Source: Faecalibacterium sp. I4-1-79
GTDB lineage: Bacteria; Bacillota; Clostridia; Oscillospirales; Ruminococcaceae
Reading direction: 5' to 3'
DNA length: 64,000 nucleotides
NCBI RefSeq assembly: GCF_023347235.1
Contig: NZ_CP094467.1
Location: 682,001 to 746,000 of the forward strand
Part shown: one piece after another, positions 33,161 through 56,856 of the stretch
Position numbering within the stretch: position 1 is the first letter of the stretch
Layout of the letters: each line of letters begins with the position of its first letter
The notes under the pieces: generated by a model
What the model saw: the letters and a program-made list of their open reading frames with translations, nothing else
Databases searched by the model: none
Told to the model about the DNA's origin: nothing
Position numbers and translations under genes: made by a program

Positions 33161-33166
33161 GAACGG

Positions 33167-33192
33167 CGGGCGGCGGTTGCCGCCCGGTACAT
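33167..33192 (+). other. Hairpin-GTACAT element 1
   Basis: CGGGCGGC (33167-33174), loop GGTT, GCCGCCCG (33179-33186), then directly GTACAT (33187-33192). It starts six bases after the maff2 stop. There is no T run, so it is not a classic terminator. Same layout as 41200, 44946 and 56827. Confidence 0.75.
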
Positions 33193-33244
33193 ATTATAAT
33201 AAGGAAATCCATAGTAACCATCTCACATACAGAAGGTGACGCAG

Positions 33245-33727
33245 ATGAGCGAGATTTTATTGTATCATGGCAGTAAAGAAGAAGTTGTCTATCCCGAAAT
33301 CCGTATCACACGGTATACAAAGGACTTTTCTTGGGGATTCTACTGCACGAACAACTATCAGCAAGCCTACCGCTGGGCAGACCGCCGTTCTGCCGACGGC
33401 CTTGTGAACGTCTACCGCTATGTAGAAAATCCCGACCTGAAAATCCTGCGTTTCCCTGAAATGTCGGACGAATGGCTGGATTTCATTGCAAAATGTCGTG
33501 CAGGCGAAACCCATCCCTACGATATTGTGGAGGGACCCATGGCAGACGACACCATTTGGGATTACGTCAACGGATTTACGTCCGGGCAGATCAGCCGTGA
33601 AGCATTTTGGGCCTTGGCGAAATTCAAGCATCCAACACACCAGATCAGCTTTCACACCGTAAACGCTTTGCACTGCCTGACCTTTGAGAGGAGTGAACCC
33701 ATCCATGACCGAAAAGCAGAAAAATGA
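33245..33727 (+). CDS. DUF3990 protein (predicted ADP-ribosyltransferase-like)
   Basis: A 160-residue protein of the DUF3990 family, which belongs to the ADP-ribosyltransferase superfamily. LLYHGSKEEVVYPEIRITRY, KDFSWGFYCTNNYQQAYRWA and NVYRYVENPDLKILRFPEMS show the family's H-G...GFY-T core; YDIVEGPMADDTIWDYVNGF and HQISFHTVNALHCLTF complete it. The start at 33245 follows AGAAGGTGACGC. Its end overlaps by 23 bp the DUF3791-like gene, a pairing that recurs in Firmicutes and looks like a toxin-antitoxin module. That role is inferred, not shown. Confidence 0.8.
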   Translation: MSEILLYHGSKEEVVYPEIRITRYTKDFSWGFYCTNNYQQAYRWADRRSADGLVNVYRYVENPDLKILRFPEMSDEWLDFIAKCRAGETHPYDIVEGPMADDTIWDYVNGFTSGQISREAFWALAKFKHPTHQISFHTVNALHCLTFERSEPIHDRKAEK

Positions 33728-34148
33728 TGTTCTCTATGTTTGCAGCCTGATTGAGACCATTGCCCGCAAGACCAAAAATCATCGGCAGGATGTGATCCGT
33801 CACTTTACAAAAGCCGACATCGAACGGCAGCTCCGGCTGGCAGAAGTAAACCATTGCCTGTCCTTTGAGCAGGTTTCGGATGAGCTGATTGAAGATCTCA
33901 ACATCCCGGAGGGGGATTTTGATACCGCCGCAGAGTGCCGCTACACGGTTCCTTCTGCAACCTCCATCGGAATGCTGTACCAGGGGCTGGTGCTGTCCAC
34001 CATGAAGGATGATGATGCAGCACAGGCAATTCTGGATGTTTTTTCGTCGTTTATCACGGATGAGATCTCCGATTTCAATTCCAACGTATACTACACCAAT
34101 CCTGATTATCTCCGCTGCTCCTATCTGGAGGGCAAAATGCTTGCTTGA
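33705..34148 (+). CDS. DUF3791-like protein, partner of the DUF3990 protein
   Basis: A 147-residue protein. The first 70 residues (KQKNDVLYVCSLIETIARKT ... IEDLNIPEG) resemble DUF3791, the short helical protein normally paired with DUF3990. The C-terminal half, ATSIGMLYQGLVLSTMKDDD and FNSNVYYTNPDYLRCSYLEG, is an extension that I do not recognise. GAGAGGAGTGAACCC precedes the ATG at 33705, inside the end of the DUF3990 gene, so the two are made together. If the pair is a toxin-antitoxin system, this would be the antitoxin. Confidence 0.65.
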   Translation: MTEKQKNDVLYVCSLIETIARKTKNHRQDVIRHFTKADIERQLRLAEVNHCLSFEQVSDELIEDLNIPEGDFDTAAECRYTVPSATSIGMLYQGLVLSTMKDDDAAQAILDVFSSFITDEISDFNSNVYYTNPDYLRCSYLEGKMLA

Positions 34149-34163
34149 GAAAGGATTGTTATA

Positions 34164-34541
34164 ATGGCAAAAAATCAACATAATGCAGGGCTTCATTATA
34201 GACCTCTCAATCAACTTGGATTATCAAACTTCAATGATTATATAGAAAATCCCATTGATAGTCGTTTTAAGTTTAATCCGCCCCCTCTAAAATGTGGTAA
34301 GCTTTTTGGACTTTGCAAAGCTGATCGTCAAAAAGAAAAGCTTCAGAAACATTGCCCGTGGCATCCGCTTCTAAAAATGAAGGCATTCACATTAGAGATC
34401 AACGGAGAGGCTGAATACATTTGGTATTGTAAAGAATGCGATTGTTATTATATGAACCCCTTTTGGCGAAATGGAGAAAAACGCATCCTTGATGTTTATC
34501 ATAAGGTTCCTGTTCGCCGACTTATAAAAACAGCTATATAG
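34164..34541 (+). CDS. Hypothetical protein with possible zinc site
   Basis: A 125-residue protein with several Cys and His: LKCGKLFGLCKADRQKEKLQ, KHCPWHPLL and YCKECDCYYMNPFW. The C-C-C-H-C-C arrangement suggests a zinc-binding fold. The N-terminus is Asn/Gln-rich and the gene is markedly more AT-rich than the conjugation genes around it, which marks it as cargo. GAGAAAGGATTG precedes the ATG. No family is known to me. A terminator follows at 34564. Confidence 0.55.
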   Translation: MAKNQHNAGLHYRPLNQLGLSNFNDYIENPIDSRFKFNPPPLKCGKLFGLCKADRQKEKLQKHCPWHPLLKMKAFTLEINGEAEYIWYCKECDCYYMNPFWRNGEKRILDVYHKVPVRRLIKTAI

Positions 34542-34563
34542 CTTTGATTATGATTTGCCGATT

Positions 34564-34586
34564 GCCGAAAAGCAGTCGGCTTTTTT
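34564..34586 (+). terminator. Terminator
   Basis: GCCGA (34564-34568) pairs with TCGGC (34576-34580), followed by TTTTTT. It ends the DUF3990/DUF3791/zinc-site unit. Confidence 0.7.
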
Positions 34587-34620
34587 GTTTCCGTCGAACA
34601 CTTTTTGTGTTTGCTCATAT

Positions 34621-34663
34621 CATTTCATCTATCATTCATCAATCAAAAATGATAGATGAAATG
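34621..34663. repeat. Perfect 16-bp inverted repeat
   Basis: CATTTCATCTATCATT (34621-34636) is repeated exactly inverted at 34648-34663 with an 11-base loop. AT-rich and without a T run, so more likely an operator or DNA-processing site than a terminator. It lies upstream of the TrbL-like gene, at the boundary between cargo and conjugation genes. The remainder of 34542-34786 holds no other gene that I can support. Confidence 0.7.
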
Positions 34664-34786
34664 AGGGCATTGTTCCATACGGCGGCTTGAGCAGCAGCGG
34701 AAAGCCCTCTGCAGCTTGCAGTTTTATTAAATGTCCGTGCTCCAAGCCGCGTTTTTATCCACCCATCCATGAAAGGCGGTGCTATT

Positions 34787-34855
34787 ATGCAGTTTTTGAC
34801 CCACATTATTTTTCTCCTGAATCTCCTCAAGACCCTTATCAACCATTTCAGCTAA
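34787..34855 (+). CDS. Possible 22-residue hydrophobic leader peptide
   Basis: ATG at 34787 after AAAGGCGGTGC gives MQFLTHIIFLLNLLKTLINH plus two residues and a stop at 34853-34855. The peptide is almost entirely hydrophobic. Its stop lies 13 bp before the ATG of the TrbL-like gene. It may be a real small membrane peptide or a translated leader; there is no independent support. Confidence 0.35.
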   Translation: MQFLTHIIFLLNLLKTLINHFS

Positions 34856-34868
34856 GGACGGTGACTGA

Positions 34869-35735
34869 ATGGAAACCGTTCTCAAAGCCATTGCCGACTG
34901 GATCAAAGGCATCCTGACGGCAGGCATTATGTCCAATCTCTCCGGCTTGTTTGATGATGTGAACACCCAAGTGGGCAACATCGCACAGCAGGTGGGCACC
35001 AAGCCCTCCAGCTTTGAGCCACGGGTGTTCGCCATGATCGAATCGCTGTCCCGGAACGTGGTGCTGCCCATTGCAGGCATCATCCTGACCTTTATCGCCT
35101 GTTACGAACTGATCGAGATGATTACCCAGCACAACAATATGGCACAGTTTGAGCCTGCCCTCATCATGCGCTGGATTTTTAAGACTGCTATTTCGGTGTG
35201 GCTCATCAGCAATACTTTTGACATCGTGATGGCGGTGTTCGATGTCACCCAAAAGGTGGTATCCGATTCCAGCAGCATCATTGCCGGAAATACCCGTGTC
35301 AACGACATTGGCTTGTCCATGCTGCAATCCAGCCTGATGCAGATGGACGTTGGTCCCCTGTTCGGGCTGTTTTTGCAGTCCTTCTTCATTGGCATCACCA
35401 TGCGCATCCTGTCCATCGTTATTTTCGTCATCGTCTACGGAAGAATGATTGAAATTTACTGCATGGTGAGCCTTGCGCCCATCCCCATGGCGACCTTCGG
35501 CAACCACGAGCAGAGCCACATGGGGCAGAACTACCTGAAATGCCTGTTTGCACTGGGTTTTCAGGGCTTCCTGATCTTGATTTGTGTTGCCATTTATGCG
35601 GTGCTGATCCAAAGCGTAGCGATTTCCGGGGATGCCATCAACTCCATTTGGAGCATTGTGGGCTACACCGTTCTGCTCTGTTTCAGCCTGTTCAAGACCA
35701 GCTCGGTGACGAAATCCGTCCTCGGAGCGCACTAA
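34869..35735 (+). CDS. VirB6/TrbL-like conjugal transfer protein (CD1112 family)
   Basis: A 288-residue polytopic membrane protein with about six membrane segments, e.g. LPIAGIILTFIACYELIEMI and ILSIVIFVIVYGRMIEIYCM. The region GRMIEIYCMVSLAPIPMATF is the signature of the TrbL/VirB6-like channel component of Tn1549-type elements. It forms part of the inner-membrane translocation pore. AAGGACGG precedes the ATG. The prgI-like gene starts 14 bp after its stop in the same operon. Confidence 0.9.
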   Translation: METVLKAIADWIKGILTAGIMSNLSGLFDDVNTQVGNIAQQVGTKPSSFEPRVFAMIESLSRNVVLPIAGIILTFIACYELIEMITQHNNMAQFEPALIMRWIFKTAISVWLISNTFDIVMAVFDVTQKVVSDSSSIIAGNTRVNDIGLSMLQSSLMQMDVGPLFGLFLQSFFIGITMRILSIVIFVIVYGRMIEIYCMVSLAPIPMATFGNHEQSHMGQNYLKCLFALGFQGFLILICVAIYAVLIQSVAISGDAINSIWSIVGYTVLLCFSLFKTSSVTKSVLGAH

Positions 35736-35748
35736 AGGAGGTGCTTTA

Positions 35749-36114
35749 TTGGCTGCGTATATTTCAGTTCCCCGTGACCTGACGAAAGTGAAATCGAAGG
35801 TCGCGTTCAACCTGACCAAACGGCAGCTTGTCTGCTTTGGCACAGCGGCTCTCATTGGAGTGCCGCTGTTTTTTGTTCTCCGGGATTCCGGCGGCAACAC
35901 TGCTGCCACCCTCGGTATGATGGCGGTGATGCTGCCGGCGTTCTTCCTTGGGATGTACGAGAAAAACGGTCAGCCCATGGAAAAGCTGCTGTCGTACTAT
36001 GTGCAGTCCCGGTTTGTCCGCCCGAAGATCCGCCCCTACAAGACCAACAACTACTATGCGATTTTGATGAAGGGAGGCGCAACCTATGATTCCGTTTTGG
36101 AAAAAGACCGGTAA
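35749..36114 (+). CDS. PrgI-family conjugation protein
   Basis: A 121-residue protein with two membrane segments (LVCFGTAALIGVPLFFVLRD and AATLGMMAVMLPAFFLGMYE) after a short polar N-terminus (AAYISVPRDLTKVKSKVAFN), the standard PrgI/VirB3-like layout. It anchors VirB4 to the membrane. It starts with TTG at 35749, eight bases after AAAGGAGG. The C-terminus overlaps the virB4 start by 29 bp. Confidence 0.9.
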   Translation: MAAYISVPRDLTKVKSKVAFNLTKRQLVCFGTAALIGVPLFFVLRDSGGNTAATLGMMAVMLPAFFLGMYEKNGQPMEKLLSYYVQSRFVRPKIRPYKTNNYYAILMKGGATYDSVLEKDR

Positions 36115-38458
36115 GGACGGCAAGAAAAAACCGCAGAAACCCGCCGTGCCCCGGACCGCCCAGCAGTCCATCCCCATGCAGCGGATGTTTGAGGATGGCA
36201 CCTGCCGGGTGAAAGCAAACTACTACACCCGCACCATCCAGTATCAGGACATCAATTATCAGTTGGCGCAGCAGGAGGACAAGACCGCCATTTTCGAGGA
36301 ATGGTGCAGTTTTCTGAACTTCTTCGATTCCAGCATTAAGTTTGAATTGTCCTTTGTGAACATGGCAACCGACAGCACCGAGTTTGAAAAGAGCATCCGC
36401 ATTCCGTTCCAGAAGGACGGTTTCGATGATGTTCGTGCGGAGTACAGCCAGATGCTGCGCCAGCAGCTTGCCAAGGGCAATAATGGTCTGACCAAGACCA
36501 AATTCATCACCTTTGGTGTGGAGGGCGAGAGCATGGCACAGGTCAAGCCCCGGCTCGACCACATCCAGAATGACCTGCTGAATAACTTCCACCGGCTGGG
36601 GGTGCAGGCAAAATCCCTGAACGGTGTCCAGCGGCTGAAGCTCATGCATGATATGTTCAACATGGATGGCTCATCCAAGTTTCACTTTGACTGGAAAGAC
36701 CTTGTGAAAAGCGGGCTTTCCGCGAAGGATGCCATTGCGCCCACCGCCTTTGCCTTCAAGAACAGCCGCACCTTCCAAATGGGCGGTATCTTCTGCGCCG
36801 TCAGCTTTCTGAGCATCACGGCATCCGACATCAGCGACCAGCTTTTGAAGGATTTTCTGGACATGGATTCCAGCCAGATCGTTACCATGCACATCCAGTC
36901 CGTTGACCAGAACCGTGCCATCAAGACGGTGAAGCGCACCATCACGGAACTGGACCGCAGCAAGATCGAGGAGCAGAAAAAAGCTATCCGTGCCGGGTAT
37001 GATATTGACATCATTCCGTCGGATTTGGCGACCTACGGCAGGGATGCCAAGGCTCTGCTGAAAGAATTGCAGAGCCAGAACGAGCGGATGTTCCTCGTCA
37101 CTTTTTTGGTGCTGAACACCGGCAGGACTGAACAGGAACTGGAAAACAATGTTTTTCAGGCATCCAGTATTGCCCAGAAGCACAACTGCAACCTGTGCCG
37201 ACTGGACTTCCAGCAGGAGCAGGGTCTGATGAGCAGCCTGCCGCTGGCAGACTGCCAGATCGAAATTCAGCGGGGACTGACCACCAGCAGCACGGCTATC
37301 TTCATCCCCTTTACCACGCAGGAATTGTACCAGAGCGGAAAAGAATCGCTGTACTACGGTCTGAATGCTCTGTCCAACAACCTGATTATGGTGGATCGCA
37401 AGAAGCTGAAAAACCCGAATGGCTTGATTCTGGGTACTCCCGGCTCCGGTAAAAGTTTCTCGGCAAAGCGTGAAATTGCCAATGCGTTTCTGGTGACGGA
37501 CGATGATATTATTATCAATGATCCCGAAGGCGAATACTCGCCGCTGGTGAACCGGCTGAAAGGTCAGGTCATCAAAATCAGCCCCAACAGCACCCAATTT
37601 GTCAACCCCATGGACATCAACGCCAACTACTCCGAGGAGGATAATCCGCTGTCCCTGAAAGCCGACTTTATTCTTTCTTTGTGTGAGCTGGTGGTGGGCG
37701 GCAAGGAAGGTCTGCTGCCGGTGGAAAAAACCGTCATTGACCGCTGTGTGCATCTGATTTACCGCAAATATTTTGCGAACCCCTGCCCGGAGAATATGCC
37801 CATCCTTGAGGACTTGTACAACGCTCTGCTTCAGCAGGAGGAAAAAGAAGCCCACCATGTTGCCACGGCTCTGGAAATCTACGTCAAGGGCAGTCTGAAC
37901 CTGTTCAACCATCGCACTAACGTGAACGTCAATAACCGCATCGTCTGCTACGACATCAAGGAACTGGGCAAACAGATGAAGAAACTCGGTATGCTCATCG
38001 TGCAGGATCAGGTGTGGGGGCGTGTCACGGCAAACCGCAGCAGCGGCAAGTCCACCCGGTATTATATGGATGAGATGCACCTCCTCTTAAAAGAGGAGCA
38101 GACCGCCGCTTATTCCGTGGAGATCTGGAAGCGTTTCCGCAAGTGGGGCGGTATTCCCACAGGGCTGACCCAGAACGTGAAAGACCTTCTTTCTTCTCGT
38201 GAGGTCGAGAATATTTTCGAGAACAGCGACATGATCATCATGTTGAATCAGGCTGCGGGAGACCGCCAGATTCTCGCAAAGCAGCTCAACATCAGCCCTC
38301 ATCAGCTTTCCTATGTGACCCACTCCGGCGAGGGCGAAGGGCTGCTGTTTTTCGGTAATGTCATTCTGCCGTTTGTGGACCGTTTCCCCACCGATCTGGA
38401 ACTCTACCGCATTATGACCACCAAGTTGGGTGAAGTCTCGGAGGGCGCGCAGAAATGA
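36086..38458 (+). CDS. VirB4-family conjugation ATPase (CD1110 type)
   Basis: A 790-residue ATPase that powers the mating channel. The N-terminal CagE/TrbE-VirB4 domain spans roughly residues 40-400. The Walker A loop GTPGSGKS is at residues 450-457, followed by NDPEGEYSPLVNRLKGQVIK. Walker B is RYYMDEMHLLLKEEQTA near residue 660, and a late motif reads FENSDMIIMLNQAAGDR. The ATG at 36086 lies within prgI. The end overlaps the hydrolase gene by ATGA. Full-length and undamaged. Confidence 0.95.
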   Translation: MIPFWKKTGKDGKKKPQKPAVPRTAQQSIPMQRMFEDGTCRVKANYYTRTIQYQDINYQLAQQEDKTAIFEEWCSFLNFFDSSIKFELSFVNMATDSTEFEKSIRIPFQKDGFDDVRAEYSQMLRQQLAKGNNGLTKTKFITFGVEGESMAQVKPRLDHIQNDLLNNFHRLGVQAKSLNGVQRLKLMHDMFNMDGSSKFHFDWKDLVKSGLSAKDAIAPTAFAFKNSRTFQMGGIFCAVSFLSITASDISDQLLKDFLDMDSSQIVTMHIQSVDQNRAIKTVKRTITELDRSKIEEQKKAIRAGYDIDIIPSDLATYGRDAKALLKELQSQNERMFLVTFLVLNTGRTEQELENNVFQASSIAQKHNCNLCRLDFQQEQGLMSSLPLADCQIEIQRGLTTSSTAIFIPFTTQELYQSGKESLYYGLNALSNNLIMVDRKKLKNPNGLILGTPGSGKSFSAKREIANAFLVTDDDIIINDPEGEYSPLVNRLKGQVIKISPNSTQFVNPMDINANYSEEDNPLSLKADFILSLCELVVGGKEGLLPVEKTVIDRCVHLIYRKYFANPCPENMPILEDLYNALLQQEEKEAHHVATALEIYVKGSLNLFNHRTNVNVNNRIVCYDIKELGKQMKKLGMLIVQDQVWGRVTANRSSGKSTRYYMDEMHLLLKEEQTAAYSVEIWKRFRKWGGIPTGLTQNVKDLLSSREVENIFENSDMIIMLNQAAGDRQILAKQLNISPHQLSYVTHSGEGEGLLFFGNVILPFVDRFPTDLELYRIMTTKLGEVSEGAQK

Positions 38459-40188: not shown

Positions 40189-40202
40189 TTGGAGAAGTTA
40201 CT

Positions 40203-40466
40203 ATGAGCGAAAAATCGGATAAACTGCGGGCGATGCTGGCAAAAGAGAAAGAACGCCGCATCAAGCTGAACAATCGCATCGAGATCCTGGAGCGGCGCAT
40301 TCAGGAGGAAGATTCTGCCGAGGTCAACGAGATGGTGCGGACGGCAAAGGTCACGCCGGAACAGCTCGCCGCCCTGCTGCGGCAGTCTGCCACCACCACC
40401 CCGAACCCTGCTGCGCTGTCTGCCGTGGGTGCAACTTTCGAGAAGGAGGATGCAGATGAAGATTAA
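40203..40466 (+). CDS. DUF4315 protein
   Basis: An 87-residue, highly charged, probably coiled-coil protein: SEKSDKLRAMLAKEKERRIK, LNNRIEILERRIQEEDSAEV then MVRTAKVTPEQLAALL. This is the DUF4315 family, always found between the NlpC/P60 gene and the DUF4366 gene of these elements. GGAGAAG precedes ATG 40203; an in-frame ATG at 40185 is less likely. It probably interacts with another channel protein; the role is unknown. Confidence 0.85.
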   Translation: MSEKSDKLRAMLAKEKERRIKLNNRIEILERRIQEEDSAEVNEMVRTAKVTPEQLAALLRQSATTTPNPAALSAVGATFEKEDADED

Positions 40467-41193
40467 GAAACTGGGCGCACTGCTGGTATCGGTGGCACTG
40501 TGCGCTGGCATGGCGGCTCCCGCTTTTGCCTATGGCGGTGAGCCTGTGGAGGAAGTGGAACAGCCCGTCCTGACTTCTACCACCGATGAAGAAGATGTAG
40601 TCACCGTGACCGATGAGGAGACCGGTGCCCTGACCCCGGAGGGCAACTTGACGCTGGTGGACGATTACCACACCGACTATTCCGATGGCAGCGGTCAGCA
40701 GTTCATTACGCTGGTGTCGAAGTCGGGTGCGACTTTCTATCTGGTGATTGACCGCAACGCCAAGGGGCAGCAGACCGTTCACTTTATGAACCTTGTGGAC
40801 GAAGCCGACCTTCTGGCTCTGATGGAGGAAGATGCTGCCGATGCCTACACCGCTGAAAAAGAAGCAGCGGCGCAGGCGGAACAGGACAGGCTGAAAGCCG
40901 AGGAAGAAGCGAAAAAAGCCGCCGAAGAAGCGGCAGCATCCGGCACGGAACAGCCCAAGGAAAACAAGGTCACAAAGATCGCATCCGGCTTTTTGGGTGT
41001 GGTGGTGCTGATTGCACTGGCAGCAGGTGGCGGCTTCTATTTCTATCACCAGCAGATGCAGAAGAAAAAAGCCGAAAAAGAAGCCCTCGACCCCGATGCA
41101 AACTACACCGAGGACAAGGGCGATTTTGAGATCCCTACCGATGTGCCGGACGAGGACGAAACCCCGGACGAGCAGGACACTGAACCCATCTGA
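40456..41193 (+). CDS. DUF4366 secreted/membrane conjugation protein (CD1107 family)
   Basis: A 245-residue protein with a signal peptide (KIKKLGALLVSVALCAGMAA, cleavage likely after AFA), an extracellular domain (FITLVSKSGATFYLVIDRNA, QTVHFMNLVDEADLLALMEE), an Ala/Glu-rich helical stretch and a C-terminal membrane segment (GFLGVVVLIALAAGGGFYFY) followed by an acidic tail. This is the layout of DUF4366. ATG 40456 is chosen over 40450 for its spacing from GGAGG at 40445-40449. It is followed by hairpin-GTACAT element 2 and then topB. Confidence 0.88.
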   Translation: MKIKKLGALLVSVALCAGMAAPAFAYGGEPVEEVEQPVLTSTTDEEDVVTVTDEETGALTPEGNLTLVDDYHTDYSDGSGQQFITLVSKSGATFYLVIDRNAKGQQTVHFMNLVDEADLLALMEEDAADAYTAEKEAAAQAEQDRLKAEEEAKKAAEEAAASGTEQPKENKVTKIASGFLGVVVLIALAAGGGFYFYHQQMQKKKAEKEALDPDANYTEDKGDFEIPTDVPDEDETPDEQDTEPI

Positions 41194-41199
41194 TTTCAA

Positions 41200-41222
41200 G
41201 GCGGCATTTTGCCGCCGTACAT
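41200..41222 (+). other. Hairpin-GTACAT element 2
   Basis: GGCGGC (41200-41205), loop ATTTT, GCCGCC (41211-41216), then directly GTACAT (41217-41222). It begins six bases after the DUF4366 stop codon, between that gene and topB. Confidence 0.75.
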
Positions 41223-41254
41223 ATCCAAATGAAAACAGATTGGAGGGAACGCTT

Positions 41255-44231: not shown

Positions 44232-44747
44232 ATGCAGCAAAAATGGAACCAGAATTTTGACGGTGAACCCATGACGGACATCCCGCAAAAGTTTCTGAAC
44301 GCAGGGTGCGATGTTTATATGGTGATGCAGCTGCGGCATGACGAAAAAATCCTCAATGAAAGATTTGCTTCCATGCGGGAACTGCATCGTCGGGGCAAAA
44401 CGCCAGACCCGGAGCATTATGAGGTCACCTACTATGCTGATTTGCCCGCCATGTGGCAGGATGTGCCGAACAACGAGATTTTGGAAGAACTATTTCAGAT
44501 GTTCAACCTCTCCCGTCCGCAGGATTTTGAGGGACACAGCCTGTCGGTCAGCGATGTGATCGCACTCAAACGCAATGGCGAGGTGTCTGTGCATTATGTG
44601 GACAGCATCGGCTTCAAAGATTTACAGGGGTTTCTGGACAAGCAGCCGGAACGCCATTCGGTACTGATGAATCTCAAGGAAAAGTGCGATGCCCCGGAGT
44701 GCAATCCAACCGTCTGCCGGAAAGCGAGGGATGCCCATGAACTTTAA
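44232..44747 (+). CDS. YodL-domain protein
   Basis: A 171-residue protein with an N-terminal helical region (DVYMVMQLRHDEKILNERFA), a middle YEVTYYADLPAMWQDVPNNE and the YodL domain: FNLSRPQDFEGHSLSVSDVI followed by ALKRNGEVSVHYVDSIGFKD. YodL domains are found in many conjugative-element proteins and are of unknown function. GAGGTGGACG precedes the ATG at 44232. It overlaps the next small gene by 11 bp. Confidence 0.82.
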   Translation: MQQKWNQNFDGEPMTDIPQKFLNAGCDVYMVMQLRHDEKILNERFASMRELHRRGKTPDPEHYEVTYYADLPAMWQDVPNNEILEELFQMFNLSRPQDFEGHSLSVSDVIALKRNGEVSVHYVDSIGFKDLQGFLDKQPERHSVLMNLKEKCDAPECNPTVCRKARDAHEL

Positions 44748-44940
44748 CCACGAAGAGCTCATGCTGATGATGCTCTACAACTCCGGCACCCGGCTGGGGC
44801 TTATCCACGAACTGCGGCTGATGCAGTGCTACCTGATGCCCGATGAAACCGCCCTGCGGGAACTGTCGGAGGGTGTTATCGAAAAGTTGAAACTGCTGAC
44901 CGATGCAGAGTTTGCCGAATTGGAATTTCCCCCGGACTGA
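44737..44940 (+). CDS. Transposon-transfer assisting protein (TTRAP family)
   Basis: A 67-residue acidic helical protein: NHEELMLMMLYNSGTRLGLI, then LMPDETALRELSEGVIEKLK and LTDAEFAELEFPPD. This matches the TTRAP family, small proteins named for their link to conjugative transposon transfer. ATG 44737 is preferred over 44731 because of its spacing from GAGGG. It ends five bases before hairpin-GTACAT element 3 and is the last gene of the conserved block before the cargo genes. Confidence 0.8.
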   Translation: MNFNHEELMLMMLYNSGTRLGLIHELRLMQCYLMPDETALRELSEGVIEKLKLLTDAEFAELEFPPD

Positions 44941-44945
44941 TTATT

Positions 44946-44967
44946 GCCGCCTACGGGCGGCGTACAT
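44946..44967 (+). other. Hairpin-GTACAT element 3
   Basis: GCCGCC (44946-44951), loop TACG, GGCGGC (44956-44961), then directly GTACAT (44962-44967). It begins five bases after the TTRAP stop. The stem has the opposite strand composition to element 2, but the geometry is the same. Bases 44968-45113 carry an AT-rich leader with GCTATAATC (a possible -10) but no gene that I can support. Confidence 0.75.
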
Positions 44968-45113
44968 AAAGTATTTTATTCTTCCAAAAGATATGCTATA
45001 ATCAAATTAGACAAAATTCCTCTCTTCAAACGATTTCTCCGCAATTTTCCTGTGGCTCTGCTCGTATCAAAAATAAGGGACCGATTTTTAATTGTCAGAA
45101 CGGAGGAACCATT

Positions 45114-45461
45114 ATGGCAATCTTTGAAAAGACCATCCGGAATCAGAATTTTGACCAGCTGCTCCGGAAGCTGGAACAGGAGATCCCGGACAGCAGTTGG
45201 TCGGCAGATTTAGAGGCAGGCAGCGATTTCAAAGAGGGCAATACCCGGTGCAGTGTCCGGGTGTTTGAACGGTACAGCATGATGGGCGGCAACCGCCTGA
45301 GTCTGACGCTGACCATGTTCCAGAATGGAGATAACCCGATTCGGCTGTCTGCAATTACCGCAGGCGGCAGTCAAGCGGTCTTCTTCAAAATCAATACCAT
45401 TGGAGAAGAATCTTTTCTGGATGACGTAAAGAACCTGCTGGAAGAAATTTTGGAGGAGTAA
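45114..45461 (+). CDS. DUF6054-like protein
   Basis: A 115-residue protein: TIRNQNFDQLLRKLEQEIPD, LEAGSDFKEGNTRCSVRVFE, RYSMMGGNRLSLTLTMFQNG and AITAGGSQAVFFKINTIGEE. I recognise this as the DUF6054 pattern, a small cytosolic family of unknown function in Firmicutes, normally chromosomal. Its presence between TTRAP and the large helicase gene marks the beginning of a cargo block. CGGAGGAACCATT precedes the ATG. The next gene begins one base after its stop. Confidence 0.7.
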   Translation: MAIFEKTIRNQNFDQLLRKLEQEIPDSSWSADLEAGSDFKEGNTRCSVRVFERYSMMGGNRLSLTLTMFQNGDNPIRLSAITAGGSQAVFFKINTIGEESFLDDVKNLLEEILEE

Positions 45462-45462
45462 A

Positions 45463-45849
45463 ATGTTTTTTGGATGGTTTGACGCTATATTCAGCTTCAT
45501 TTTCCCAATCCTGTTCCTGCTTTTTATGGGAATGTTTTTCTTTGCCCTAATTTCAAATCTCCGCACATGGAATAAAAACAACCACTCGCCGCGGCTTACC
45601 GTTCCGGCAACGGTGGTGGCAAAGCGTACCGATGTTTCGCATTCCAGTAGTGCCAATGCCGGAGATGTGTCCGGTGCGCACGGATACGACACCAGCACGT
45701 TCACGTCATACTATGTGACTTTTCAGGTGGAAAGCGGCGACCGCATGGAACTTGAAGTAGATGGTTCGGACTACGGAATGCTTGTGGAGGGCGACATTGG
45801 AAAGCTGAGTTTTCAGGGCACCCGCTATCTTGGGTTTGAGCGGAACTAA
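45463..45849 (+). CDS. DUF2500-like membrane protein
   Basis: A 128-residue protein with one N-terminal membrane segment (FSFIFPILFLLFMGMFFFAL) followed by an exported domain: RLTVPATVVAKRTDVSHSSS, TSYYVTFQVESGDRMELEVD and GMLVEGDIGKLSFQGTRYLG. This is the DUF2500 layout (N-terminal anchor, small beta domain). It is co-transcribed with the DUF6054 gene, with GGAGGAG just before the ATG. Function unknown. Confidence 0.75.
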   Translation: MFFGWFDAIFSFIFPILFLLFMGMFFFALISNLRTWNKNNHSPRLTVPATVVAKRTDVSHSSSANAGDVSGAHGYDTSTFTSYYVTFQVESGDRMELEVDGSDYGMLVEGDIGKLSFQGTRYLGFERN

Positions 45850-45883
45850 TCGTTCTCCTACATTATATAGTAAGGAGTGCTGT

Positions 45884-46606
45884 ATGAACGATCTGTTTAT
45901 CCAAGGGCTGACCATCGACTGGAACAGAGTGCGCCCATACAATTATGTTCGTCAGATTCCTGCCATCAGCGGAATCGACACTTTTACATTCCATAAGCCC
46001 ATTACGTTCTTTGTTGGCGAAAATGGAAGCGGAAAATCTACGCTTCTGGAAGCAATCGCTGTTGCTTACGGCTTCAACGCAGAGGGTGGAACGAAGAACT
46101 ATTCATTTTCCACATACAACTCCCATTCGGAACTATGTGAGGCTATGACGATTTCCAAGGGGTATCGCAGACCAAAGTTCGGGTATTTTCTCCGGGCAGA
46201 GAGTTTCTATAATGTAGCCACCAAGGAAATCGACTATTCCGATGACGATCATCCCTCCAAAGGCTATCACCAAAAATCACACGGTGAAAGTTTTCTCGCC
46301 ATTGCGCAGGACTACATGGGTGCAGATGGAGTCTATATTTTTGATGAGCCGGAAGCAGCTCTATCTCCGCAGCGGCAGCTCACGTTGCTGATCAACATTT
46401 ATCGGTGTGCCCAAGAAGGGGCGCAATTCATTATCGTATCACATTCACCCATTCTCCTCGGAATGCCTGATGCTGAAATTTTCAGCTTCGACAATGGCAC
46501 GATTCATCCTTGTCAGTATGAAGATACGGACAGCTACGTTATCACCAAAACATTTGTAAATAATCGGCAGCATTTTTTGAACCAGCTTCTGAACGAAGAA
46601 CTGTAA
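45884..46606 (+). CDS. AAA-family ATPase (ABC/SMC-like)
   Basis: A 240-residue ATPase with the Walker A loop GENGSGKS at residues 45-52, a Q-loop region, the signature-like SHGESFLAIAQDYM near residue 140, Walker B GVYIFDEPEAALSPQRQLTL near 157, and a switch His in FIIVSHSPILLGMPDAEI. This is the compact COG3910-type predicted ATPase. It may act alone or with the coiled-coil protein encoded next. AAGGAG precedes the ATG at 45884. It lies in the cargo block of the conjugative element. Confidence 0.85.
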   Translation: MNDLFIQGLTIDWNRVRPYNYVRQIPAISGIDTFTFHKPITFFVGENGSGKSTLLEAIAVAYGFNAEGGTKNYSFSTYNSHSELCEAMTISKGYRRPKFGYFLRAESFYNVATKEIDYSDDDHPSKGYHQKSHGESFLAIAQDYMGADGVYIFDEPEAALSPQRQLTLLINIYRCAQEGAQFIIVSHSPILLGMPDAEIFSFDNGTIHPCQYEDTDSYVITKTFVNNRQHFLNQLLNEEL

Positions 46607-46627
46607 TGCCGGGAAAGGACATTCCAT

Positions 46628-47563
46628 ATGAGTGATTCTACGTTGAAAGAACTTTGGCAGCAGGTCTCAGAAAAGAAGAACTGTGAAGCAAAGCAGAAAG
46701 AACTGACTGCCCAGAGAGATACGCTTGCTGATCGTCTGAAAAAGCTGGAAAAATCCAAGCTGGCAGAACAGGCTGATGTGGACCGTCTGGAGGGGCACAG
46801 CCTTGCCGCATTTTTCTATCAAGTGATTGGAAAAATGGATGAAAAGCTGGACAAAGAACGTCAGGAAGCCTATGCAGCCCGTGTCAAGTACGATGCGGCT
46901 CTCCATGACCTTTCTTCCGTTGATGCCGACTTGGGGCAGATTCAAAATAGACTGGCACGGCTGTCCGATTGCGAAAGGCAGTATCAAGCTGCTCTTTCCG
47001 AAAAAATCAAAAGCATCAAAGCCTCTGCCCACCCGGCTGCACAGCAAGTTGCGGAAAGCGAAAGCCGTATTGCAGCACTGAAAGTCCAAAAGCGGGAACT
47101 GCTGGAGGCCATCAACGCAGGAAAGACTGCCCTGCATACGGTCAATGAAGTTCTGGAAACCCTCGACAATGCCGAGGGCTGGAGTACATGGGACGTAATG
47201 GGCGGCGGTTTGATGGCCGATCTTGCCAAGTATGAAGAACTGGACGATGCTCAGGAACAAATCGAACAGCTTCAAGTGGAACTGCGGCGGTTCAAAACTG
47301 AACTTTCCGATGTCGAGATCACTGCAGACCTTCAGGTCACGGTAGACAGCTTTCTGAAATTTGCGGATTTCTTCTTTGATGGCCTCTTTGCAGACTGGGC
47401 AGTTCTGGATCACATCAACCAGGCACAGAGCAGAGTGGAAAACACCAAGGATCAAATCAAGCGAGTCCTTGCACTTCTGAAAAAGATGCGCGAAGATGTT
47501 GATGTCCAGATCGCTGACGAAAAAGAAAAGCAGGAGCAGCTTGCGGTGGAAACCGAGCTGTAA
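46628..47563 (+). CDS. Coiled-coil protein of unknown function
   Basis: A 311-residue, almost wholly helical, charged protein: KELTAQRDTLADRLKKLEKS, RLARLSDCERQYQAALSEKI, SESRIAALKVQKRELLEAIN and RVENTKDQIKRVLALLKKMR. A Gly-containing break (AEGWSTWDVMGGGLMADLAK, near residue 180) suggests a hairpin of two coiled-coil arms; that WDxxGGG segment recurs in this family of helical proteins. It starts 22 bp after the AAA ATPase gene. With that neighbour it could form an SMC-like pair, but that is inference from adjacency alone. Confidence 0.65.
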   Translation: MSDSTLKELWQQVSEKKNCEAKQKELTAQRDTLADRLKKLEKSKLAEQADVDRLEGHSLAAFFYQVIGKMDEKLDKERQEAYAARVKYDAALHDLSSVDADLGQIQNRLARLSDCERQYQAALSEKIKSIKASAHPAAQQVAESESRIAALKVQKRELLEAINAGKTALHTVNEVLETLDNAEGWSTWDVMGGGLMADLAKYEELDDAQEQIEQLQVELRRFKTELSDVEITADLQVTVDSFLKFADFFFDGLFADWAVLDHINQAQSRVENTKDQIKRVLALLKKMREDVDVQIADEKEKQEQLAVETEL

Positions 47564-47632
47564 GGTTAGAGCGTTCGCTTATGTAATATGCTCAATTCGA
47601 CAACTCGGAATTTGACAAAGGAACGTGACCAT

Positions 47633-47890
47633 ATGAAAAACAACAGCCCGCAAAAGCACGCTTTCATTTCTTGTCTCATCTTGGTAACAGGAATATTGCT
47701 CGTGGTAATAGGCGCAATGACAACAAAGGAGTACAAAATCAACCTGTGCCTGTTAATCGGTGCAATAGTTGTTATTGGCGGCATTGTATATCATCTCATT
47801 ATGATGAAATGTCCTTATTGTGGCTGCTCGCTTGTTGGTTATAGACCAATCCCTAAAGAGTGCCCAAAGTGTCATAAAAAGTTTGAATAA
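47633..47890 (+). CDS. Small membrane protein with C-terminal zinc ribbon
   Basis: An 85-residue protein with two membrane segments (AFISCLILVTGILLVVIGAM and NLCLLIGAIVVIGGIVYHLI) followed by a zinc ribbon: MKCPYCGCSLVGYRPIPKEC then PKCHKKFE. The start at 47633 follows AAAGGAACGTGACC; upstream in-frame codons lack such a site. It is the last cargo gene before the large helicase/methylase gene. Unrecognised function. Confidence 0.65.
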   Translation: MKNNSPQKHAFISCLILVTGILLVVIGAMTTKEYKINLCLLIGAIVVIGGIVYHLIMMKCPYCGCSLVGYRPIPKECPKCHKKFE

Positions 47891-47914
47891 TAATCGATCT
47901 TTATTACACCCTTT

Positions 47915-47948
47915 GCGGGCAACCCCAAAACGGTTGCCCGCTATTTTT
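47915..47948 (+). terminator. Terminator at the end of the cargo block
   Basis: GCGGGCAACC (47915-47924) and GGTTGCCCGC (47932-47941) form a perfect 10-bp stem, followed by TATTTTTAT. Confidence 0.85.
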
Positions 47949-47978
47949 ATACCCTAAAATCTGAAGAAGGAGGCCAAA

Positions 47979-51686: not shown

Positions 51687-52405
51687 GTGCGAAACGTTGT
51701 GCATAAGCCCTTGTTGACAGCAAGGACGAAAAGCACCATGTGATTGCACTTAGCAATAAGAAAATATCACAGAGAACTTTAATCTCGAAATCAGAGGTGA
51801 AATTCCTCTGCCGTACAGAACCAATGTCGAGGAACAGAATTTCAGAGAATAGGTCAAAATTCAAGATAGTACGAGAGCTAATACTCCACTGTGCGTTGCC
51901 ACCTGTAAGTGTGCATTGTACAGAGCGTGGTGAAGACGTAACCTGAAAACCTAAACCTCTGCAAAGAGGCATGGATAATAATGGTGCGGGCTTCCGAAAC
52001 CTATGGCTATCCGATAGGGAAAGCTATGCAGCATCGTAAGAGCGAACGACATCTGAAAGGGTGACCCTTGGAAAAAGTGTGTGTGGCTGGTTTTTCTGCA
52101 CACGCCCTGTGGGATGAAATCCCCATCAGGAATCATGCAGCAACTGTGGTTCAAAGCATGGTTAGATTTTCCCGGTGTAAGGTAGCAGCCTAAGGGTTTC
52201 AGAACAAGGATAGAGATTAAGGAACGTTTGAGAGCCTGTTGTTGGAGCGTTACAGCGCAGTGAACGCAACAGGAAGTCAGCCGTATCATAGTAGTCTGGG
52301 CTGGGTAATGCCAGTCAAACGGAATTGAAATATTCCATGGCGAAGGATACGAGTCAAATCGATTTGTAAATTTCACAAAATGAAAATCCTATAACTCCCT
52401 GAAAG

Positions 52406-53595
52406 ATGGGTGACGAACTGCGAGGTGAAAACCTTGTGCATTTGAACGTCAGATTTTCAACGGAAACGGAACTTAAAAAGATTCAGGATTTTCTCTATGA
52501 GAAGTCCGGTCAAGGAGTATCGTTCACCGGTCTGGTGGAAGCGATGGTAAATGAAGTGACCATTGTAACCGCCGTCCACAATATCAAGTCCAACAAAGGC
52601 AGCAAAACTGCTGGCGTGGATAAGATAAAAATGGACAAATACCTTCAAATGCCCAAAGATGAGCTTATTTTATTGATTCAATCGAGTTTTCGCAACTACC
52701 GCCCCAAACCAGCCCGCCGTGAATATATCGAAAAGAGTAACGGCAAGAAAAGACCGCTGGGTATCCCCACTGTATTGGACAGGATCATACAGGAGTGCGT
52801 GCGTATCATTATCGAGCCGATCTGTGAAGCGAGATTTTATCCGCAAAGCTACGGCTTTCGCCCCTATCGGGCACAGAAACACGCAATCCGGGGTATCATC
52901 AATGTCATAAATGCTGGATGTAAATCGCCCGACCAACCCGTGTGGGCTATTGAGGGTGACATCAAGGGATGCTTCGACAATATCAATCACCGCCTGCTGC
53001 TCCAAAAACTCTGGAGAATCGGTATCCATGACAAGCGTGTGCTGAAAATTATCAGTCAGATGCTAAAAGCTGGATATATGGAAAATGACCTGTTTCATGC
53101 AACAGAGCTTGGTACACCGCAGGGAGGAATCCTCTCACCGCTTTTATCCAATGTTTATCTCAACGATTTCGATTGGTATGTTGGTCGTATGTATATGGAG
53201 CCGCACAGACAGTGCAAGCATAAAGGCAACGACACAAGGCGTTTGAAATGGGCTGGTGTAACGCCAAAGTACAATTATCGCTACGCCGATGATTGGGTGA
53301 TTCTGACGTCAACGGAGAAGGAAGCACTCCGCTTGAAACGTGTCTTGACAAAATATTTTCGGAACAGAATGAAACTCGAATTGTCGCAGGAAAAGACCTA
53401 TGTAACAGACCTGCGGACAAACGGTATACACTTTCTTGGCTTTGTGGTAAAGGCCGAACGAAAACGGAAAACTCCTGACCCGGCAACATGGACGAAACAT
53501 CTGGTTGGAAAGCCGCTGCCGGATATGGAACGGTTAGGAAAGAAGATTAAGAAACTGCTCGAAGAAGTGCACCGCATAGAACTTTGTCAAAAAAG
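52406..53595 (+). pseudogene. ltrA: Group II intron-encoded reverse transcriptase/maturase, N-terminal part (frameshifted)
   Basis: The frame holds a complete reverse transcriptase domain: KGSKTAGVDKIKMDKYL (RT1), RPLGIPTVLDRIIQECVRII (RT2), FYPQSYGFRPYRAQKHAI (RT3), AIEGDIKGCFDNINHRLLLQ (RT4), GTPQGGILSPLLSNVYLNDF and the catalytic YADD at residues 293-296. Thumb/maturase sequence follows to LGKKIKKLLEEVHRIE. At about 53577-53595 the correct continuation shifts to another frame (from ...GAACTTTGTC on), consistent with loss of a single base. The original frame ends uselessly at 53800. As written, a functional maturase cannot be made from one frame. Confidence 0.85.
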
Positions 53596-54323
53596 TCAAT
53601 GTGCAGGCTGCGCAAATTCAGTACGTCAACTCTGTCATTATGGGTATGGCACAGTACTTGCAGACATCCATCTGCTCTCATGCCTACCATGCGATAGACC
53701 GCAGAGTAAACAACGCTGCACTGACTGTATGGAAAAAGCTGTACCCCAAACGGTACAACTCCATGCAGGTGCCGCTGAAGGTGCTTTGCAATCTTCCTGA
53801 CCGACACAAGGGCTACGACAGTAAGACATTTGCTGTATGGGTCGAAGGAAAATGGTTTGGTATAACTTATGCGTTCATCACGCATAGTCACTATGAACCC
53901 AAGCCATTTGACCAGAAAATGACGCCGTATACAGTGGAAGGGCGCAGACGGTATGTGAGCTATCGTGCTAAGCACAAGCCACTGCCATGTGACCGTCCAT
54001 CCGTTAACTCCCCGAACGATATTGCAATGTCAGCATACGCAAAGGGAAGGATGAATTTTGAGTATTATATGAACCGGGAGTATGCTTACAGCAGGGACAA
54101 AGGAAAATGTAAATGCTGTGGAAATGCCTTCTCACCCGTGCTTCAAAAGCATTGTCACCACGTTAAAAACAAGCTTCCACTTGATAGAATCAATAAAGTG
54201 CCAAATCTGGTTTGGCTGTGTGAACCATGCCACCGCATGGTTCACAACAGTCCAATACCGCCTGAACTTGATGCAAAGACGGTAGGCAAAATCATGAAAT
54301 ACCGCGAAAAACTTAAACTGTGA
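53583..54323 (+). pseudogene. ltrA: Intron-encoded maturase and HNH endonuclease, C-terminal part
   Basis: Continuation of the maturase in another frame: FVKKVNVQAAQIQYVNSVIM, MAQYLQTSICSHAYHAIDRR, then an X/D domain and a C-terminal HNH endonuclease: CKCCGNAFSPVLQKHCHHVK and VPNLVWLCEPCHRMVHNSPI with the CxxC...CxxC zinc pairs and the H-H...H core. The protein is thus of the RT-X-D-En type that can cut target DNA for retrohoming. There is no ribosome binding site for independent translation of this half. Confidence 0.82.
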
Positions 54324-54533
54324 AATTTACAACCACTCTGTGTCCGTGAGAACACAGCAGTGTTGAAATCTGAAGGAAGAAAGTAAATCGATTTGATGGT
54401 ACGCCGGGTGCGCTGAAAGGTGCACGCCCGGCGTGAGGTGGGGGAAAACTTGGAGATTACTTCAAAAAGTTACCTATCACAACAAAGCAGACTACTCTGC
54501 GGACTGCTTCGCAGCCGCAGAGGTGCTGCACAT

Positions 54534-56491
54534 TCTTTTTGACCACAAAAATGCGGAATGTCGCTGGATTATCCACCAGCGAAGCCCAGAAATCCAGCGA
54601 TATGTTCGGCAAGTGCCGCTATCTGGACGAGATCACCGGCGGGCGTGGCGTGGTATTCGCTACCGGCACCCCGGTGAGCAACTCCATGACCGAGTTGTAC
54701 ACGGTCATGCGGTACCTCCAGTACAGCACCTTGCAGCAGAAAAAGCTGACGCACTTCGACTGCTGGGCATCCACCTTTGGTGAGACGACCACGGCCATTG
54801 AACTTGCCCCGGAGGGTACCGGCTACCGTGCCCGCACCCGGTTCGCCAAGTTTTTCAACCTCCCTGAGTTGATGTCCATGTTCAAGGAGGTTGCGGACAT
54901 TAAAACTAGCGACCAGCTTCATCTGCCGGTGCCGGTCGCAAAGTTTGAAACCGTGGTGGCAAAGCCGTCCGAAATTCAAAAGGAAATGGTGCAGGAACTG
55001 AGCAAACGTGCTGCAGAAATCCACTCCGGTGCAGTGGATGCCTCCGTGGACAATATGCTCTGCGTCACAAACGATGGGCGCAAAATCGGCTTGGACGTTC
55101 GCTTGATGAACCCCATGCTGCCAGATGATCTCAACAGCAAATTGAACGTATGCGTTCAAAATGTGTTGAAAATCTGGGAGGAGGGTAAAGAACAGAAGTT
55201 GACCCAACTTTTGTTCTGCGACCTCTCGACACCGAAAAACGATGGCAATTTCAACGTCTACGATGACATTCGCAAAAAGCTGATCGCCGCCGGTGTGCCG
55301 GAAAACGAGATCGAATTTATCCACAATGCTGACACCGAAGCAAAAAAGGCGGCGCTGTTCTCCAAAGTGCGCTCCGGCGATGTGCGAGTTTTGCTCGGAA
55401 GTACGGCAAAAATGGGAGCGGGCACCAACGTGCAATCCCGGCTTGTGGCGGTGCATCACTTGGACGTTGGCTGGAAGCCCAGCGACATGACCCAGCGCAA
55501 TGGTCGCATCATCCGGCAGGGCAATATGAATAAGGAAGTCAAGGTGTTCAATTACGTTACGGAAGGGACATTTGACAGTTATTTGTTCCAAACTTTGGAA
55601 AATAAACAGCGGTTTATCAGCCAAATCATGACTTCAAAATCCCCGGTGCGCTCCTGCGAGGATGTGGATGAGCAGGCGCTATCTTACGCCGAAATCAAGG
55701 CACTGTGTGCCGGAAATCCGCTCATCAAGGAGAAGATGGATTTGGATGTTCAGGTCGCAAAACTCAAGGTTCTGAAAGCCGACCACCAGAGCCAGAAATT
55801 CCGCTTGCAAGACAAGCTGCTGACAAAATTCCCGGCTGACATTCAGGAAACGAACGCCCACATCGCCGGGCTGAAAGCGGACGCGCAGCTTGCCGCCGCC
55901 CACCCGCAGGGCAAGGAGGAGTTCTGCGGTATGACCATCAGGGGCGTGACCTACGACGAGAAAAAGACCGCCGGCGAACGTCTGGTGCTCGCCTGTTCCG
56001 AACTGCCCAACGCCGAAGAAAAAGTGATCGGCAGCTACCGGGGCTTTGAGCTGTCCCTGCGGTTCGACACCTTCCGCACGGAGTATCAGGCACTTTTGAA
56101 GGGGCAGCGAAAGTACACGGTGCCTTTGGGCACCGACCCACTGGGCAACATCATCCGTCTGGATAACTCCCTGAACAACTTCCCGGAACGCATCACCGCC
56201 GCAGAAAACGAACTGGATACCCTGCATCAGCAGCAGGCGGCGGCGCAAATTGAGGTGGAAAAGCCCTTCCCGCAGGAGGAAGAACTGGCTGAAAAATCAG
56301 CACGGCTTGCAGAGCTGAACGCTCAGTTGGATGTGGACGAAAAGAGCCACGAGCCGGAACAGGACGAGGAAGAACAGGAGGACGAGTCTCGCCGCCCCTC
56401 GGTGCTGGCGGCTCTGGAAGAAAAATCCGACAAGCCGGAGCCGGTGAAGCCCTTCCGCAGTTATTACGACAAGGATGGTGATGCCCGGTGA
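54534..56491 (+). pseudogene. Large helicase protein, C-terminal part (3' exon)
   Basis: Continuation of the SNF2-type helicase: LTTKMRNVAGLSTSEAQKSS, YLDEITGGRGVVFATGTPVS (motif III TGTP), STFGETTTAIELAPEGTGYR, LLFCDLSTPKNDGNFNVYDD, RVLLGSTAKMGAGTNVQSRL, the motif VI MTQRNGRIIRQGNMNKEVKV, and FISQIMTSKSPVRSCEDVDE. A long charged C-terminal region ends with YYDKDGDAR. With the intron removed at 51687-54533 it is in frame with the 51155 segment and would give a helicase-only product of about 830 residues. The upstream deletion still prevents joining to the N-terminal part. It overlaps mobC by four bases. Confidence 0.85.
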
Positions 56492-56820
56492 GGGAAAAAC
56501 GGGATGAAACCATCATCCTGCGCTTGAGCAAAACAGAAAAGAACCGTATCTATGAAAAAATGCTCAGCATGGGCATCCGAAGCCTGAGTGCCTATATCCG
56601 CAAGATGGCACTGGACGGCTATTGCCTGCACCTTGACTTGAAAGACCTGCAACGCATGGCATATCTCTTGCAGATGTGCAGCAACAACCTGAATCAGTAC
56701 GCCAAAGCCGCCAATGAAAATGGTCGGGTCTATGCCGCCGACATGGAGGACCTGCAGCAGCGGCTGGATGAACTGATTGAGATTGGTCGGCAGATTCTTT
56801 CCCGGCTGGCTGATCTCTAA
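56488..56820 (+). CDS. mobC: MobC-type relaxosome protein
   Basis: A 110-residue protein with a ribbon-helix-helix N-terminus: REKRDETIILRLSKTEKNRI and LSMGIRSLSAYIRKMALDGY, followed by helices LKDLQRMAYLLQMCSNNLNQ and LQQRLDELIEIGRQILSRL. It is the MobC/BfmRI-like accessory protein that helps the relaxase at oriT. It starts with GTG at 56488, overlapping the end of the helicase gene. Hairpin-GTACAT element 4 begins six bases after its stop. Confidence 0.87.
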   Translation: MREKRDETIILRLSKTEKNRIYEKMLSMGIRSLSAYIRKMALDGYCLHLDLKDLQRMAYLLQMCSNNLNQYAKAANENGRVYAADMEDLQQRLDELIEIGRQILSRLADL

Positions 56821-56826
56821 ATTTCT

Positions 56827-56856
56827 CCCCGCAGTTGGAGGGCTGCGGGGGTACAT
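56827..56856 (+). other. Hairpin-GTACAT element 4
   Basis: CCCCGCAG (56827-56834), loop TTGGAGGG, CTGCGGGG (56843-56850), then directly GTACAT (56851-56856). Six bases after the mobC stop. The stem sequence is unlike that of the other three copies, but the order stop - hairpin - GTACAT with no gap is the same. Confidence 0.75.

Follow-up and report, generated by a model that had tools for sequence, protein, structure and literature searches.

A hairpin-TACATA signal at gene borders of a Faecalibacterium conjugation operon, a putative target of an element-encoded MazF-type RNase

A GC-rich hairpin with the hexamer TACATA at its 3' foot recurs directly after stop codons in the conjugation operon of an integrative and conjugative element (ICE) of Faecalibacterium sp. 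I4-1-79, and the same unit stands in leaders of pemK genes, which encode proteins of the MazF family (PF02452). The operon lies in a stretch of 64,000 nucleotides (hereafter the window; positions 682,001 to 746,000 of NZ_CP094467.1, in a genome that consists of a single contig of 3,227,950 bases). The operon may be Tn1549/CTn4-like, a class name carried over from a preliminary description of this DNA. The signal is real, conserved, a feature of the RNA and tied to an element-borne MazF-family gene. From the sequence evidence we propose, with a probability of roughly 0.7, that the sites are intercistronic and autoregulatory cleavage sites of a MazF-type RNase encoded by the element.

MazF proteins have mostly been discussed as toxins, with dispute over what they naturally target. 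The element-borne MazF described here appears to have a target list of its own, consisting of a few structured hexamers in one operon and in the leader of its gene, and the role of a MazF becomes directly testable in a gut commensal. If the proposal is true, control of the conjugation operon has an extra post-transcriptional layer.

The conserved unit is a hairpin followed by TACATA

The preliminary description had reported four intergenic sites of one layout, and all four are found where it placed them: a stop codon, 5-6 nt, a perfect GC-rich hairpin and GTACAT (Table 1). The stem lengths it gave, 6 or 8 bp, hold for sites 1, 3 and 4, but for site 2 a stem of 7 bp around a 3-nt loop is also possible. 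Pfam agrees with the genes named as preceding sites 2-4 (PF14283, PF14203 and NikA/MobC-like), while maff2, the name of the gene before site 1, is the preliminary label only. Nor are the sites limited to four: further ones exist elsewhere in the window, in the pemK leader and after the DUF6551 gene. A search of genome contigs with the window's TTRAP protein gave 16 matching loci, all in Faecalibacterium.

RNA folding of sites 1-4 gave z values of -2.45 to -3.01. The hexamer stays free of pairing in the folds of sites 1, 2 and 4 and, for site 3, in the centroid. The absence of a T run, also remarked on earlier, was borne out: an intrinsic-terminator scan that covered sites 1-3 calls nothing there, and site 4, outside the scanned region, has no T run in its sequence. 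With no T run after the stem, we rejected an intrinsic terminator as the identity of the sites. At gathering score no Rfam covariance model matched any of the four sites, and the same held for E values up to 5 over window positions 32800-57100.

A motif-free search for hairpins starting 2-12 nt past the stop of open reading frames (ORFs) of at least 60 aa returned 189 distinct hairpins from 165 sequences, namely 164 loci (designated L) and the window. TACAT lay 0-3 nt past the stem in 60 of these hairpins, and the next base was A in all 60 while the seventh base was free; the base before TACATA was G in 50, T in 5, C in 3 and A in 2. The stems of the 60 start 4-8 nt past the stop (5 or 6 nt in 48 cases) and have 17 distinct 5' arms, many of the hairpins being related copies of the same sites. 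The commonest hexamers directly 3' of the 189 hairpins were GTACAT (33) and TACATA (12). Because A always follows TACAT and the base before it varies, the conserved unit is the hairpin plus TACATA. The GTACAT of the preliminary description was therefore rejected as the motif: its TACAT part and the hairpin geometry stand, but the leading G is not kept and the A behind it is constant.

An adjacent GC hairpin was present at 71 of 304 distinct TACATA contexts, compared with 0-7 of 71-566 contexts for nine control hexamers (ATACAT, TATACA, TACTAA, TAACAT, TTCATA, TACAAT, TACAGA, AACATA and TATGTA). ACATAT, which overlaps the motif, had such a hairpin at 23 of 277 contexts, and TTTTTT, the terminator case, at 94 of 1449. 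In the first 75 sequences, 41 of 242 distinct GTACAT contexts had a stem of 6 bp or more directly against the motif. GTACAT alone is only mildly enriched in the window, with 29 occurrences against a shuffle mean of 17.1 and a maximum of 28 (100 shuffles).

Hairpins occur on the sense strand and outlast changes in their stems

Across four ICE regions of this genome, a hairpin accompanies 22 of 45 sense copies of TACATA and none of 32 antisense copies; the 22 include a weak 5-bp stem that does not follow a stop. In seven elements around pemK genes of other genera, the hairpin was found at 16 of 89 sense copies and at none of the 56 antisense copies, with 0-8 hits for ten other hexamers, but these elements were chosen for carrying PemK and therefore provide no independent test of co-occurrence. 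The preliminary description had asked for enrichment in related elements, and with the constant A, the contexts counted above and the sense-only hairpins this enrichment was seen.

At orthologous sites, pairing is kept while the stem sequence changes and the hexamer remains constant. One subfamily has CGGGCGGC/GCCGCCCG as the stem after the maff2-like gene and a second has CAGGCGGG/CCCGCCTG, with two both-sided changes between them and an unpaired intermediate in L136; the arms of this site 1 stem were paired by eye, with no pair count, because the alignment puts a gap inside the stem. Among 30 post-MobC loci, hairpin-TACATA is present in 22 of the 28 that could be read and absent from six (L086, L089, L090, L092, L093 and L094), the other two having run off the stretch. 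The post-MobC alignment took only loci preselected for TACATA; stems are wholly replaced in L084, L087, L088 and L104, and within the main MobC group 99% of alignment cells pair. In the L073 copy at 9984, hairpin and hexamer are intact despite the decayed TTRAP tail in front of them.

An element-borne PemK with conserved MazF residues

The PF02452 proteins of L020 (224 aa), L126 and L132 score 87.6-95.9 bits (cut-off 23.1). The solved structures closest to the ICE PemK are EndoA and other MazF proteins (4mdx, E 9e-22). In 49 PemK domains of the non-chromosomal type, G18, R25, P26 and N36 are kept in all 49, and E20 and T48 in 47. These positions correspond to catalytic or base-contact residues, with the roles of G18, R25, P26 and T48 known from MazF-bs and those of E20 and N36 from MazF-Da (PMC8634880). 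In Bacillus subtilis, transcriptome-wide in vivo data are described in which EndoA (MazF) cuts UACAU only when A follows (PMC11780869), and MazF-sth is reported to prefer U^ACAUA in vitro (PMC10893535). The site hexamer thus equals the in vivo cleavage hexamer of EndoA base for base, and, judged from the co-occurring motif, the ICE PemK would probably be specific for UACAUA.

In L020, L166 and L170 the genes follow the order sigma70-region-4 gene, 102-aa gene, pemK, DUF6551, helix-turn-helix gene and integrase, and L123 has the gene set of L020 on the minus strand. The hairpin-TACATA unit is also found 3' of DUF6551 in L020, L123 and L121. A look for an antitoxin, at L020 alone, found an upstream 102-aa gene with no Pfam match and DUF6551 downstream; membership of pemK in a toxin-antitoxin system is unproven. 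The DUF6551 gene (L020:3117-3929) adjoins pemK in 12 of 13 pemK-bearing loci compared, and its product is a candidate partner or inhibitor of PemK. DUF6551 is described as a ParB-CTPase-like fold, and phage fusions with DUF6551 bound CTP or ATP (PMC12704722).

Proximity of pemK was scored from MobC in closed Faecalibacterium genomes. From 43 MobC hits of at least 54% identity, 21 fell in closed genomes, and at 18 of these 21 a PF02452 gene on the same strand follows within 50 kb, compared with a mean of 1.3 and a maximum of 6 for random placement (2000 trials). Two partial hits, G131:C47:59 and G000:675496, were left out; the latter lies in a closed genome and has no PemK within 60 kb of it, and adding it gives 18 of 22. 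Eight closed genomes gave 45 MobC hits in all, of which 19 had both the site and a PemK within 60 kb, 2 the site only, 2 PemK only and 22 neither. The corresponding Fisher value of 1.6e-8 is too small, because all 21 site-bearing loci are MobC relatives of at least 54% identity and thus form one related group.

Most non-chromosomal-type pemK leaders carry the same signal

We compared 83 distinct records, each a PemK domain plus its leader (the 125 nt before the domain), counting only domains that fit the anchor pattern; L289 did not fit. Chromosomal-type proteins were recognized by the sequence motif ADLSP[VG][VI]GSEQ and not by mapped position. Of the 49 leaders of non-chromosomal type, 37 contain TACATA, and in 26 of these a stem passed the filter; none of the 34 chromosomal-type leaders contains the hexamer. 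The leader copies stand upstream of the ribosome binding site.

The signal extends beyond the genus. Six loci of six other genera (L207-L212) have hairpin-TACATA in the pemK leader, the leaders of L209 and L210 being identical. The leaders of L214, L228, L229 and L231 contain the hexamer, with a clear stem, judged by eye, in L228 only. Within one pemK subfamily the leader reads CACATA in L183, L165, L121, L291 and L292 and TACATA in the close relatives L290 and L168. Such natural variants of the leader would be useful for probing autoregulation.

Proposed mechanism and the evidence against it

We propose a portable signal in which a GC-rich hairpin right past a stop codon would present U^ACAUA as a single strand at its 3' foot. 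Transcription would read through the gene borders, and PemK, which ICEs of this family encode close to the integrase end, would cut U^ACAUA in the long conjugation transcript. The upstream mRNA piece would then end in the hairpin and a few unpaired bases and should resist 3' exonucleases, while the downstream piece would begin with ACAUA and a 5'-OH; in B. subtilis, such downstream 5'-OH ends are described as being trimmed further (PMC11780869). In the pemK leader, the cut would remove the hairpin just 5' of the ribosome binding site, and PemK supply could be tuned in this way. We infer cleavage in the cell, an effect on mRNA stability and any benefit to transfer.

Two roles had been put forward in the preliminary description: a site at which mRNA is processed or stabilized, or one bound by an RNA-binding protein that the element encodes. 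Both are in line with the EndoA hexamer, the PemK of elements in this family and the hairpin-hexamer in most of their pemK leaders. A broader proposal, which to us seems evenly balanced, is that a family of gut ICEs may have domesticated a MazF-type RNase with no recognised antitoxin as a dedicated processing enzyme, acting through a portable, stop-proximal hairpin-U^ACAUA that recurs between functional blocks and in the leader of the enzyme's gene, with the enzyme level setting the relative stability of the transfer modules under self-feedback.

Several observations weigh against cleavage by the element's own enzyme. The PemK nearest the window's element lies 43 kb past its MobC, beyond a minus-strand island of immunity-type genes, and given this distance and the intervening island it is not proven to belong to the element. 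Its leader reads CACATA, as in L165, L183, L291 and L292, although L290, whose leader is closely similar, reads TACATA. More generally, the hexamer is missing from 12 of the 49 non-chromosomal-type leaders and present with no filter-passing stem in 11 more; the twelve have CACATA (L121, L165, L183, L292), TCCATA (L132, L184) or neither motif nor variant (L133, L167, L169, L176), and include L283 and L287. Co-occurrence of site and PemK is confounded by kinship, the site-bearing loci being largely one clade. Two G146 elements have the site and no PemK within 60 kb, and genome G096 has no PF02452 match, yet its locus L038 carries hairpin-ATACATA after TTRAP. In the post-MobC stems of the main group, changes are one-sided only, and the covariation score is not above that of shuffles. 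Avoidance of the hexamer in genes is likewise unsupported: TACAT occurs 4 times in the window's genes against 6.8 expected (13.5% of shuffles were as low), and in thirteen regions, where ORFs were called mechanically and may run into leaders, TACATA occurs 52 times against 39.3 and TACAT 187 times against 236.9, with TACGTA depleted more.

Alternative explanations

The sites could also be targets of the MazF of the host. Under this alternative a chromosomal EndoA-like enzyme would cut them and the PemK of the element would serve only as an addiction or defence toxin. PF02452 is found in 29 of 31 Faecalibacterium genomes, the chromosomal-type protein is even closer than the ICE protein to the UACAU-cutting MazFs (E 4.9e-41), and a host enzyme would explain the two G146 elements. 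However, the motif stands in the leaders of non-chromosomal-type pemK genes and in none of the chromosomal type, the element pemK occupies a conserved place near the integrase end (L020, L123, L166 and L170), and L038, in a genome without a PF02452 match, is left unexplained. Weighing these points, we regard a host MazF as unlikely.

Slightly less likely still is binding without cutting, in which hairpin-UACAUA would be bound by PemK or by a different protein of the element, for instance DUF6551, with control of translation, antitermination or stability as the outcome. The same anatomy would be expected, and the proximity of DUF6551 to pemK speaks for it. It is the identity of the hexamer with a cleavage hexamer, together with the retention of the catalytic residues R25 and T48 (counted above), that argues for PemK as a cutting enzyme instead.

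Terminators, pause sites or stops for 3'-end trimming would need no dedicated enzyme, and the place of the GC-rich stems right after stop codons, the promoter-like sequence downstream of sites 3 and 4, and the T-run hairpins that follow the same genes in some distant elements are all consistent with such roles. These roles require no strict hexamer, however, sites 1-3 have neither T run nor terminator call, and pemK leaders have the signal too, ahead of the ribosome binding site, which makes this explanation quite improbable.

Least credible of all, recombination or cassette-insertion sites in DNA, with cargo modules starting right after site 3, would account for the divergence of sequence directly 3' of the site and for modules flanked by a second TTRAP tail and hairpin in L061, L063, L073 and L074, but we set them aside because there is no fixed boundary: on their upstream side the copies include anything from about 20 bp of TTRAP to the whole gene, as in ordinary recombination, the sites stand in pemK leaders too, and the strict sense orientation fits RNA better.

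Comparison with known systems

B. subtilis EndoA (MazF-bs) and MazF-sth of Symbiobacterium share with the ICE PemK the PF02452 domain, the UACAUA hexamer and the conserved catalytic and base-contact residues (PMC11780869, PMC10893535). As described there, these enzymes are chromosomal, have a MazE-type antitoxin and find their targets scattered over the transcriptome. The ICE pemK, in contrast, is element-borne, and structured hairpin-hexamer sites are repeated at the borders in the operon and in the pemK leader itself. In E. coli mazEF, MazF is likewise reported to cut its own mRNA and so to limit itself, but through many plain ACA triplets in the coding part (PMC5888573); neither "hairpin" nor "stem-loop" appears in the main text of that paper.

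Phage T4 RegB offers another parallel, as a sequence-specific endoribonuclease of a mobile element that acts at intergenic sites of its own transcripts and controls its own translation (PMC3014915). RegB differs in its RelE-like fold, its recognition of GGAG in ribosome binding sites and its role in the shut-off of early genes, and no hairpin-hexamer unit is described for it. In the arbitrium decision of phi3T, a mobile element likewise has its life cycle directed by a MazF activity, but the enzyme belongs to the host and is controlled by phage proteins, and dedicated hairpin sites are not mentioned in the available portion of the account (PMC10769878). MazF cleavage and self-cleavage are known already, and the repeated hairpin-hexamer together with its own enzyme in an ICE would be the new part. 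We found no such combination in literature titles and abstract openings, which is weak evidence of absence since subscription journals were mostly uncovered.

Coordinates and neighbouring features

Table 1. Hairpin-TACATA sites and adjoining genes in the window
Feature	Position	Strand	Details
Site 1, 3' of maff2-like gene	33158..33193	+	TAA 33158-33160; stem 33167-33174/33179-33186 (8 bp, loop 4); G; TACATA 33188-33193
Site 2, 3' of CD1107-like gene (PF14283)	41191..41223	+	TGA 41191-41193; stem 41200-41206/41210-41216 (7 bp, loop 3); G; TACATA 41218-41223
Site 3, 3' of TTRAP (PF14203)	44938..44968	+	TGA 44938-44940; stem 44946-44951/44956-44961 (6 bp, loop 4); G; TACATA 44963-44968
Site 4, 3' of MobC	56818..56857	+	TAA 56818-56820; stem 56827-56834/56843-56850 (8 bp, loop 8); TACATA 56852-56857
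Further hairpin-TACATA copy	22308..22344	+	stem 22308-22315/22327-22334 (8 bp); CCTT; TACATA 22339-22344
maff2-like gene, 5' of site 1	32945..33160	+	name from the preliminary description
CD1107-like gene, 5' of site 2	40429..41193	+	PF14283; the DUF4366 gene of the preliminary description
TTRAP gene, 5' of site 3	44689..44940	+	PF14203
MobC/NikA-like gene, 5' of site 4	56488..56820	+	Pfam
Relaxase ORF, 3' of site 4	56871..58640	+	PF03432; mechanical ORF start

The further copy lies in what appears to be a remnant of an ICE right end (window 22104-22664), with a sigma-like gene start, the hairpin-TACATA and an integrase start; the pemK-DUF6551 part is missing.

The cargo 3' of the TTRAP site varies between copies of the element and has promoter-like sequence of its own at its start. 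Examples are window 44969-47978, L061 4128-6938, L063 10273-11533, L073 8322-9984 and L074 390-3342, and a second, partial TTRAP tail with hairpin-TACATA can follow the modules. The sequence CGACAACTCGGAATTT is common to several module leaders and is also found at window 47595-47615.

The maff2-like gene is often split in the genus, into residues 1-52 and 44-71 or 1-43 and about 40-71. Between the two parts, which share a strand, lie some 9-12 kb (for example G146:C1:2746635 and 2757006), as if an element of that size inserted at two fixed points of maff2.

Directly 3' of site 4 (window 56858-56895), many relatives (L078, L080, L096-L104) have TTGACATCCTTGCAA followed by a -10-like TATAAT. This stretch could be a promoter or, by resemblance, possibly part of an origin of transfer (oriT).

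The minus-strand island of immunity-type genes occupies L120 3621-16557, about 3.6-20 kb past the window end, and includes an ORF of 2072 aa with Imm68, Imm33, SUKH, SUFU, DUF4261, DUF7832 and DUF4253 domains in a row. A group II intron (window 51830-54483; reverse transcriptase 52406-53800) lies between two large ORFs of the element. Upstream of the element, two HDV-F-prausnitzii ribozymes are found at window 16908-16976 and 18510-18587, with scores of 72.2 and 68.4 bits.

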